NCBI GenBank assembly: GCA_000508305.1
Contig: CP006977.1
Coordinates: forward strand, 714,621 to 778,620
Length of the DNA: 64,000 nucleotides
Reading direction: 5' to 3'
Source of the DNA: Sulfolobus acidocaldarius SUSAZ
GTDB lineage: Archaea > Thermoproteota > Thermoprotei_A > Sulfolobales > Sulfolobaceae
The position numbers and the translations under genes were made by a program. Below are positions 28,021 to 42,128 of this stretch, in pieces; position 1 is the first letter of the stretch; each line of letters opens with the position of its first letter. The notes under the pieces are model-generated. The model searched no databases, was not told the origin of the DNA, and worked only from the letters and a program-made list of their open reading frames with translations.

Positions 28021-29019
28021 ATGAATGTAAGCATTATAGGTGGAGGTCCAGCGGGTTTATCTTTGGCCTGGTTTCTAAGGGGAACAAAATATAATGCAAC
28101 AGTCTATGAGGGTCTAGATAATGTGGGTTATAAGCCCTGCGCATGGGGACTAATAACCGGTGTTGAAGAACTAGTTCCAATATCAAAAGAAGCCATTATA
28201 GGAGAAATAAAGAGATTTAGAATATATCTAAACGGAAAAATAGTCCATGATATAGAGTCAAAGAAGAGACTTGGATACATAATCGATAAGCCCTTGTTCC
28301 TCAGGGATATAGCAGAAAAAGTAAACGTTCAGTATAATTCAAAGGTGACTGAAAGGAAAGGCGAGTATCTCGTAAATGGTAATCAGAAATTAGAGAGTGA
28401 TATGGTAATAAACTCCACAGGACATTACTCACTGTCATTTGATCAAACCATTCCAGCCATCCAATACATTACGGATTATAAGATAGACTCTGATATAGTA
28501 GAATTCTATTTTTACTCAGACCTTTTAGGATATGCTTGGGTGTTTCCAGACAGATATGGGAGTAAGATAGGTATAGGCGGATGGGCTAGTGTAGACTTTC
28601 TAAGACAAAGACTTTCCTCAGTCATTAAGGGTAAGACATTGTTCTTTCATGGTGCTAGGGTAGCGGACATAGGAATTCTTGACGATAGACTTAACGGTAA
28701 ATATGTTGGTGAGGCAATAGGTGCAGTTTACCCTTTGACAGGTGAGGGCATAAGACCCTCAATACTTAGTTCTAAGATGCTTGCAGATTCCCTCTTGAAG
28801 GGAAAAGAGTTTAAGGCTGAGTTTAAATCGTCAAAACTGTACTTCACTATTCAATCTCAAGCCAAGATAATTGAGGGAGTAAAGAAGAAAGTGATTGGAA
28901 CTGATGTTTTATCTAAGATGTTAACTAAAACTGATCCTGATCTAGTTCTCAAGATAGCTATAGGTGATTTTGGAAAACTTGACCTTATTAAAATATTTGG
29001 GAGGTCACTTTTACCATGA
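28021..29019 (+). CDS. Geranylgeranyl reductase-family FAD oxidoreductase
   Basis: 332 aa. [13 protein letters not shown] binds [12 protein letters not shown] parallels the KPCG cysteine motif of geranylgeranyl reductase, and GYAWVFPD with IGIGGWAS matches the substrate block. The C-terminus is shorter than in the 452-aa paralogue at 24.8 kb. Likely reduces an isoprenoid (lipid or quinone tail), but the substrate is open. Overlaps the Lrp gene by 4 nt. Confidence 0.85.
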
Positions 29020-29471
29020 CATATATTCTAGATGATATAGACAAAAAAATACTCTCTATTCTCCAGGAGGACGCAAGGACTCCTTTCTCTAAGATAGCTA
29101 AAATGTTGAATCTTAGTGAATCAACTATACATATGAGAATAAGGAGATTAAAGGAGAAAGGCGTTATTAAAGGTTTTTACGTCGATATAAGCCCTGAAGC
29201 TATAGGGTTAAATGTAGTTGCCTTCATAATGATTAAGGCAGATCCTAAACGATATGAACAGATTCTGAAGAAGATAGCATCTTTCAAAAGTATATTTGAG
29301 GTTTTTGATATTACAGGTGAATATTATTCAATACTAAAAGTTAGGGTAAAAAGTAGGGAAGAATTGGCTAAAATTCTAGATGAAATAGGGAATATGGAGG
29401 GAGTGACCTCCACCTATACCATGTTTGTTTTAAGGACAATAAAAGAGGCTAAAACTATAGATTTTGACTGA
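29016..29471 (+). CDS. Lrp/AsnC family transcriptional regulator
   Basis: 151 aa: N-terminal winged helix-turn-helix ([45 protein letters not shown]) and C-terminal RAM ligand-binding domain with [17 protein letters not shown]. Such regulators respond to amino acids or small ligands as oligomers. Translationally coupled to the reductase-like gene, which it may regulate; no operator was identified. Confidence 0.92.
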
Positions 29472-29525
29472 TCAGTGCGAGAGCTCGTCATCACTTATCT
29501 CAGCCGGTTTTTTAGTCTTCATTTC
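29469..29525 (-). ncRNA. Candidate C/D-box methylation guide sRNA
   Basis: On the minus strand the order is C box ATGAAGA (one mismatch to RTGATGA, 29522-29516), 12-nt guide CTAAAAAACCGG, D' box CTGA (29503-29500), 5-nt spacer, C' box GTGATGA (29494-29488), 12-nt guide CGAGCTCTCGCA, and D box CTGA (29475-29472). Box order and guide lengths match archaeal C/D RNAs, which are numerous in Sulfolobus. It starts at the stop codon of the RimK-like gene and fills the convergent gap. Targets were not identified. Confidence 0.6.
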
Positions 29526-30403
29526 TTCATCTTTTTAATGAGATGCTCAACAATATACTTTGCAGGATTTATCTTTGTAGCCTCATAAAATCCTCCCCAC
29601 AGGGGAGAACCATTCACTTCAAGGATCTTGTAATCCCCACTTTCATCTTCAACAATGTCGATACCAGCGTAGTCTAAGCCTAAAACTTTCATTGATTTAA
29701 GTGTGATCTCTTCAAGATCCTGGTTTACAGTAATTACCTGGGTGAGAGACCCTTGAGCTACATTAGTTTTCCACGAAGATTTATTTATCCTGTAAATTCC
29801 TCCTAATATTCTGTCCCCTACTGCAAATATTCTAATATCTCTCTGTGGTTTGTTAATATATTTCTGAATGTAAATGGGCTGATTTATTGATAGTAGAGAT
29901 TTTGAAACCCTAAAAACTATATCAGGATCTTCAGCTCTTATTGAGCCCAAACCCAAACTGCCCACAACGGGCTTTATGACTACATCCTTCCATTTCATAA
30001 CAAGTCTCATAGCCTCAAATGGATCTTCAACCACAGCCGTCTCAGGAACAGGAATTCCTGCACTCTTTAGCTTAACGAGACTGTAAAATTTATCTCTAGC
30101 TACGAACATAGCATCAGGTCTATTGATTAGTGTTATCCCACTTTTCTCCATACTTCTTAGCGTATCATATCTTCTTATCAATTGTTCAGTTGATGAAATA
30201 AATCCCAGATTTCTTATTAAACCACCATCAATTTCTAATGTGTTACCAGCATAACCATATTCTACTCCGTCTTTAGTTATTATGGTGTTTAGCCTCGATA
30301 TTCTTAGATAGATTGCTGTATGCCCCGCATTTTTTATTTCAAGTAATAGCTGCTTAGCAGCCTCTGTAACTTTCTGAGATTCATGAATGACAGCAATATT
30401 AAT
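29519..30403 (-). CDS. RimK-type ATP-grasp ligase, probable AUU start
   Basis: ATP-grasp enzyme of the RimK/LysX/MptN group that joins an amino acid to a carboxylate. The ATP-grasp core includes [34 protein letters not shown] and [15 protein letters not shown]. The first normal start in frame is TTG 30181, but the open frame continues upstream and encodes [20 protein letters not shown], the typical N-terminal domain. No ATG, GTG or TTG exists there; ATT at 30403 sits 5 nt after a GGTGAT Shine-Dalgarno site and gives 294 aa, the normal length. The substrate is unknown. Confidence 0.8.
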
Positions 30404-30408
30404 ATCAT

Positions 30409-30414
30409 ATCACC
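30409..30414 (-). promoter_or_regulatory. Shine-Dalgarno site deciding the AUU start
   Basis: GGTGAT on the minus strand, complementary to the expected 16S rRNA 3' end, lies 5 nt before ATT 30403. An ATG just after it (30408) is out of frame and leads to a stop after 24 codons. Confidence 0.6.
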
Positions 30415-30439
30415 AAGATTTGACTCGAAAATAATGTTT

Positions 30440-31291
30440 TTATAGTTTTTTAATACCTGCCTCGGTAAGTAACCCCATTGACAGTGTGTCAGGTATTGAT
30501 ATAGCTATCTCATTAAACTTCTCTCTCACATCCAGTTTTGAAAGAAGAGATATGTACTGGGCTGATGCGTTGTTGTATTCACTTTTAACAAATTCCCCAT
30601 ACTTCTTCCCGTACAACTCATACAGTTGTTTGGCACTACCTACAAGCTCCTTAGTTTTACCACTTTCAAAATTAATACAATCAATGTAATCGTCAATAAG
30701 TTGATACATAATTCCAAGATATTTCCCCATATCTAAAAGTAAGTCTAAGTCCTTCTCCCTATCCGCTGTAAATGCAGCCAAAGCTGTGGACAATTTAAAC
30801 AGACTTGATGTCTTTAGTTCAATGGTGCTCAGATATGAGGCAGCAGGACCAAACATGTCTTTGATTGCGCCTATTGCAGTGTCCTTCCATAACTCTAGAC
30901 TAACCTTGAGCGCATTTTCTCCATACCTAGAGATAATATTCAATGCAGATGGAATGAGATAATTTGTTATGAAAACAACCCTCCTATTTGTGTATAATGC
31001 CCAAGCAGATAATTTACCCCTTCTCGTTGTATCATAATCCACTATATCATCCAATGCCAGGGAGGAAGAGTGTAGTATTTCTATGGCTAAGGCAGCGTCT
31101 AGTGAATTACTCAGTTCACCACCTAAAGCTTCAGTAAAAAACATATTTAGCACTGCTCTGTATCTCTTTCCGTCTTTCAGTATGTATTTGCTAACCTCTA
31201 ACATGTCAAGATCCTTGATTTGTGATAGATATTTCTGAATAACATCGTCAATGAGTTGCTTAGTTTTAATCCAATACTCTATGAAGTCCAC
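30440..31291 (-). CDS. Hexaprenyl diphosphate synthase
   Basis: 283 aa trans-prenyltransferase closely resembling, as I recall it, the Sulfolobus hexaprenyl diphosphate synthase: DGKRYRAVLNMFF, AIEILHSSSLALDDIVD with first Asp motif at 81-85, FITNYLIPSAL and the second Asp motif DDYID near 197. It makes the C30 chain expected for caldariellaquinone-type quinones rather than the C20 lipid precursor. Adjoins the 268-aa gene upstream with one base between. Confidence 0.88.
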   Translation of the reverse strand: MDFIEYWIKTKQLIDDVIQKYLSQIKDLDMLEVSKYILKDGKRYRAVLNMFFTEALGGELSNSLDAALAIEILHSSSLALDDIVDYDTTRRGKLSAWALYTNRRVVFITNYLIPSALNIISRYGENALKVSLELWKDTAIGAIKDMFGPAASYLSTIELKTSSLFKLSTALAAFTADREKDLDLLLDMGKYLGIMYQLIDDYIDCINFESGKTKELVGSAKQLYELYGKKYGEFVKSEYNNASAQYISLLSKLDVREKFNEIAISIPDTLSMGLLTEAGIKKL

Positions 31292-41720: not shown

Positions 41721-42128
41721 ATGAGTGAGTTACTGGCAAGACAGAAAGGTAGATTAAGACTCCTAATTCTCTGGCTCTTATATCAGTCCCCTAAAAGAGG
41801 GATAGATATCATTGACGATATATATAAAATGAGTTGGGGTATGTGGAGACCATCTCCAGGTTCTGTCTATCCATTATTAAATAAGCTTCTGGAGGAAGGA
41901 GCGGTAAGAAAAGAAGGTGGGGATAGATATCAGATAACGGATAAAGGTATAAAGGAAATAGAGCATTTCATACTGGTTAGAAACAGAAGTAAAACCGAGG
42001 ATGCCATAGAGGAACTACAGGGTTTACTTAATTTCTTCAAGGAAATAAATAGAGAGGAATTAGCGCTCCATAAGGAGAATATTATAGATATACTAAAGAA
42101 AATAGAAGAGGTGATAAGAAATGCGTGA
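41721..42128 (+). CDS. PadR-family transcriptional regulator
   Basis: 135 aa: winged helix (LLILWLLYQSPKRGIDIIDDIYKMSWGMWRPSPGSVYPLLNKLLEEGAVRKE) and a C-terminal dimerising helix. PadR proteins usually repress exporters and release DNA when they bind a drug-like ligand. The ABC ATPase start overlaps its stop by 8 nt, and the duplicated palindrome just before its ATG is the likely operator. Confidence 0.9.
   Translation: MSELLARQKGRLRLLILWLLYQSPKRGIDIIDDIYKMSWGMWRPSPGSVYPLLNKLLEEGAVRKEGGDRYQITDKGIKEIEHFILVRNRSKTEDAIEELQGLLNFFKEINREELALHKENIIDILKKIEEVIRNA

Follow-up and report, generated by a model that had tools for sequence, protein, structure and literature searches.

The window, that is the whole stretch of 64,000 nucleotides of Sulfolobus acidocaldarius SUSAZ analysed here, carries on its minus strand a gene (29519..30403) for a RimK-type, MptN-like ATP-grasp ligase of 294 amino acids, which very probably begins with ATT. 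The upstream neighbour on the same strand specifies a hexaprenyl pyrophosphate synthase (30440..31291; NF040936, 450 bits). On the other side a convergent gene on the plus strand (29016..29471) specifies an Lrp/AsnC-family regulator, the best NCBIfam match of which is LysM (112 bits, under the cut-off). This arrangement is conserved: the synthase gene precedes the ligase gene in 27 of 30 orthologous loci (tblastn of the neighbour), and an Lrp-type regulator faces it in 24 of the 30.

The ligase passes the RimK-family cut-offs for PF08443 (106.5 against 21; E-value=1.7e-30) and TIGR00768 (193.1 against 143.4), in agreement with the first-pass annotation, which had named a RimK-type ligase of this length. 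Its best NCBIfam match is MptN (NF040720; 236.4 bits, residues 4-288 on profile positions 3-290), the tetrahydromethanopterin:alpha-L-glutamate ligase. Although this match is full-length and the best in the library, it falls below the curated equivalog cut-off of 350 bits. The LysX/ArgX cut-off (TIGR02144, 275.6 bits) is missed as well, at 166.6 bits; the other two RimK paralogues of the genome pass it (341 and 352 bits) and adjoin an aminotransferase gene and a carbamoyl-phosphate synthase-like gene. The likeliest function would be the ligation of glutamate to a small substrate, pterin-like or of another kind.

At the start of the gene the minus strand reads AATCTT, GGTGA and TATGAT, followed by the codons ATT AAT ATT GCT GTC ATT CAT GAA. 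The Shine-Dalgarno (SD) sequence GGTGA (30410..30414) is separated from the ATT codon (30401..30403) by six nucleotides, which equals five when counted from GGTGAT. The TGA within GGTGA (30412-30410) is in frame with this ATT, so that the ligase frame is closed just upstream. Between this stop and a TTG (30179..30181; codon 75) the frame contains neither ATG nor GTG nor TTG. Both the lack of a canonical codon in the N-terminal part and the position of ATT five nucleotides after GGTGAT had been described in the first-pass annotation, and both hold. Among the long open reading frames of the window the ligase is an extreme outlier, for its first canonical start has a stop-to-stop codon index of 76 and no other frame exceeds 31. 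The ATG genes of the window with a GGTGA-type SD, for example those at 42118 and 53205, share the six-nucleotide spacer, so ATT is placed where a start codon belongs. At this spacing the TGA of a GGTGA SD is an in-frame stop throughout the genome, and the SD itself therefore terminates the reading frame ahead of the start codon.

An out-of-frame ATG (30406..30408) had been considered a possible competitor. It lies one nucleotide after GGTGA, opens a frame of 24 codons and is present only in two Sulfolobus genomes; it is judged irrelevant. A possible TATA box (CTATAAAA, 30438..30445), recognised by its sequence, overlaps the stop codon of the synthase gene, and an A/T-rich stretch resembling it is also present in the orthologues. 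A ligase transcript with a leader of about 10-15 nucleotides would possibly follow from it. A search for RNA structure at the ligase start revealed none (z 0.99).

Start codons of the ligase in Sulfolobaceae

Ligase orthologues were drawn from 30 Sulfolobaceae genomes, the genera of which are coded g1 and so on. The two Sulfolobus genomes make up g1; the genus names behind the other codes, such as Metallosphaera-like for g3, are presumed from sequence. ATT stands at the homologous codon in 19 of the 30 orthologues, in six genera (g1, g4, g5, g6, g7 and g11), and in all 19 it is preceded by GGTGA or GGTGG at exactly six nucleotides. The two g2 genomes carry ATA, SD and spacing being unchanged. 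TTG is the start in g8 and, one codon upstream of the homologous position, in all six g3 genomes. In g10 ATA occupies the homologous codon, but GTGs upstream make the start ambiguous. In none of the 30 Sulfolobaceae orthologues is ATG found at this codon, and the start site proposed at first pass is upheld; relatives outside the family, where readable, have ATG or TTG.

In the orthologue alignment coding conservation sets in abruptly at ATT, the two preceding codons being variable, and in most orthologues a stop lies in frame two or three codons ahead of ATT. Two observations count against an AUU start, namely an in-frame GTG seven codons upstream of ATT in three g6 genomes, and an internal GTG at codon 5 in some genomes.

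The persistence of the codon was compared with that of columns encoding an invariant residue, Met and Trp excluded. The start ATT requires no change on the 19-genome tree, which spans 2.45 substitutions/site; as these genomes were selected for ATT, the value describes persistence inside that set. The 99 invariant-residue columns need a median of five codon changes, only one of them needing none, and four invariant internal Ile columns need two to five. In its nucleotide conservation the start ATT is thus not an ordinary Ile codon. On the whole tree, with g10 excluded, the ligase start needs two changes.

Other AUU-led genes

The pattern GGTGA-N6-ATT occurs 84 times in the genome. Of the 83 occurrences checked, 12 lead into open frames of 60 or more amino acids, and in at least nine of these the next canonical codon lies at least 14 codons downstream. 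The nine, with names read by eye from the sequences rather than assigned by family search, are the ligase, an alpha/beta hydrolase, a type-2 IPP isomerase, a sulfite reductase, a homoserine dehydrogenase, leucyl-tRNA synthetase (LeuRS), PurF, a 243-amino-acid protein and a penicillin-acylase-like protein. The rarity of AUU starts which the first-pass annotation had implied is not borne out, since at least these nine genes have AUU in the same setting. In PurF (contig position 1320371 onward; loci L133 and L271) a protein begun at the next canonical codon would lack the N-terminal Cys. This residue is catalytic in the PurF family.

In an unbiased sample of 464 kb, ATT lay six nucleotides after GGTGA 18 times and opened a coding frame 5 times; of the 557 other non-standard codons in this position, 12 did so (Fisher p 8e-5). 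The canonical codons in this position did so in 7 of 15 (ATG), 3 of 14 (TTG) and 1 of 5 (GTG) cases. At the control spacings of 3, 9, 12 and 15 nucleotides the values for ATT in the same sample were 0/20, 0/22, 1/17 and 1/21. No gene was seen among the ATA (0/33) and ATC (0/14) hits examined in this genome. The raw counts of GGTGA-N6-ATT show no genome-wide enrichment (31 against 37 for reversed controls; 53 against 44); the signal is visible only when a coding frame is required.

In four of these genes ATT occupies the place at which relatives have ATG or TTG. Homoserine dehydrogenase starts with ATT in both Sulfolobus genomes; in most other genomes the codon is ATG or TTG. The IPP isomerase has ATT in g1, g6 and g7, and ATG in most g3 and most g4 genomes. 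PurF has ATT in g1 and elsewhere mostly ATG or GTG, and the alpha/beta hydrolase has ATT in g1, the g4 genomes being divided between ATT (three), ATC (one) and ATG (two).

The start of LeuRS (contig position 1289754 onward, locus L362; relatives at L363-L391) is ATT in g1, g6 and g11, ATA in seven of seven g4 genomes and ATC in three of three g5 genomes, each of these codons lying six nucleotides after GGTGA or GGTGG. ATG was not seen in these five genera; it is present in g2, g8 and g10. In g3 and g7 the spacing is five and a GTG is in frame, which leaves the start ambiguous there. Since the LeuRS start moves among the three Ile codons, the keeping of a weak start can be told apart from the keeping of one particular triplet, and for this reason the LeuRS evidence is stronger than that of the ligase alone.

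Several further loci were noted. The IPP isomerase gene of one relative (genome G163; L270, C1:151402-152005) is split over two frames and contains TGA and TAG, which indicates either a broken gene or an assembly error. Apparent in-frame TAG and TGA codons in alpha/beta-hydrolase orthologues proved to be ordinary terminal stops. Four loci (L162:19061-19639, L155:15813-16664, L161:10009-11379 and L145:11678-12322) include a RadA/KaiC-like gene with a possible CTG start, a succinyl-CoA synthetase-like gene with a possible ACG start, an MFS transporter with a possible TTA start and a methyltransferase with a possible ATT start at seven nucleotides; the CTG, ACG and TTA starts are single, unproven candidates. 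A prephenate-dehydratase-like gene (L150:14050-14898) extends over 109 codons without a canonical start and has no GGTGA. A frame at L153:8965-9357 was rejected as an AUU gene, being a startless ATPase fragment which carries on an upstream frame beyond a frameshift and is probably a pseudogene. The gene for aIF1 was likewise rejected, since it has an ATG start in this genome.

Explanations of the AUU start

The start position, its conservation and its recurrence in other genes are established by comparison of the sequences, and we are confident that translation of the ligase starts at AUU 30403. As far as such comparison reaches, SD-dependent initiation at AUU is uncommon but regular in Sulfolobaceae and serves roughly 0.5% of genes. 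The GGUGA sequence at the optimal six-nucleotide spacing would set AUU in the P site, where initiator Met-tRNA (anticodon CAU) would pair with it by a third-position mismatch; the N-terminal residue would be Met and the rate of initiation would be low. According to work cited in PMC6237735, initiation complexes of S. solfataricus that form on codons other than AUG are destabilised by aIF1. Such starts should therefore be weak and sensitive to aIF1, and the AUU start could be inefficient. A weak start that responds to a fidelity factor in this way would keep expression down to the level required, which is probably why it has been retained over long evolutionary times.

The lack of reversion to AUG suggests that AUU in the ligase, and AUU, AUA or AUC in LeuRS, are kept through selection for weak initiation, a proposition that we consider evenly balanced. 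The wider proposal is put forward tentatively: that Sulfolobaceae hold a stable class of genes, including the RimK/MptN-like ligase and LeuRS, on isoleucine start codons through selection for weak, aIF1-sensitive initiation, which would give archaea a tier of translational control that works through the start codon.

Persistence of a codon may have reasons other than selection for weakness. The strong SD could have made AUG dispensable, with the start drifting by chance to AUU and remaining frozen there as a neutral character of no regulatory meaning. This account is compatible with AUU as the start and competes only with the part played by selection. The exchange of ATG, TTG and ATT among genera in the other genes, as if these codons were interchangeable, speaks for it. 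Against it stand the ligase AUU, unchanged throughout the tree of its 19 carriers, and LeuRS, with Ile codons only within five genera. Annotated prokaryotes switch from AUG to AUU about once in 61,000 cases, and the purifying selection that favours AUG (PMC5622118) would predict reversion of a neutral start. Neutral freezing is a possible explanation, albeit a somewhat doubtful one.

Bacterial infC, the gene for IF3, has an AUU or AUC start which is associated with autoregulation. A comparable loop, in which AUU would tie the ligase gene to the activity of aIF1, finds some backing in the discrimination of aIF1 against non-AUG codons in S. solfataricus (PMC6237735) and in Streptomyces sigR, the GTC start of which is repressed by IF3 (PMC5472188). 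The first-pass annotation had pointed to infC, an analogy which does not carry over, as the product here is an ATP-grasp ligase and not an initiation factor. With aIF1 itself on ATG, and with the AUU genes lacking an obvious common function, such feedback is improbable.

Three further explanations place the start at a codon other than AUU. The TTG at 30181 is the first canonical codon of the ligase frame, and initiation there would yield a protein of 220 amino acids, the upstream part being untranslated. The 74 residues preceding it are conserved nearly like the rest (0.74 for residues 2-74, 0.77 for the remainder) and the MptN profile is matched from its position 3. This TTG is not conserved, the orthologues having TTA, CTT, TTC, CTA, ATG and other codons in its place, and a scan of the window ORFs found no SD for it. 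It is judged not to be the start, and its use is very unlikely.

Hardly more credible is initiation at the GTG inside GGTGA, on a leaderless or short-leader transcript, with a frameshift or termination-reinitiation then leading into the main frame. In many species this GTG is followed by three codons and a stop that overlaps ATT (GTG NNN NNN NAT TAA/TAG), but the overlapping stop is a by-product of ATT followed by AAA or AGA; it is absent in g2, and in g1 the GTG frame ends earlier (GTG ATA TGA). Finally, a sequencing error or recent frameshift, by which a true ATG was lost or displaced, such as the out-of-frame ATG five nucleotides upstream of ATT, can be dismissed, since the same ATT at the same spacing, and no ATG, is seen in the other Sulfolobus genome and in 17 more from five further genera, an agreement of independent orthologues that excludes an indel.

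Comparison with known systems

A search of open-access literature revealed no paper that describes AUU starts in Sulfolobales; their novelty is on this ground likely, not certain. Gene finders and reviews assume that archaeal genes start at AUG, GUG or UUG, and in one such review (PMC7531240) only these three are named and no mention of AUU was found. With AUU recurring as a start, annotation probably shortens or overlooks real genes of a model archaeal family, essential ones such as that for LeuRS among them. The AUU genes also offer a testable system for the tolerance of near-cognate codons by a eukaryote-like machinery (aIF1, aIF1A and aIF2) under the guidance of an SD helix, and they bear on the question whether archaea regulate through start-codon strength.

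In SD and spacing the AUU genes match the SD-led Sulfolobus genes that start in the ordinary way at AUG, GUG or UUG. Streptomyces sigR, with its GTC start (PMC5472188), resembles the ligase as a gene for something other than an initiation factor which is kept on a weak start and was missed by annotation; it differs in the codon and in the domain of life. With bacterial infC the ligase shares an SD-led start at a conserved near-cognate codon that departs from AUG in the third position. Unlike infC, the AUU starts described here are archaeal, belong to several metabolic genes and have no link through their products to initiation, the factor aIF1 being translated from ATG.
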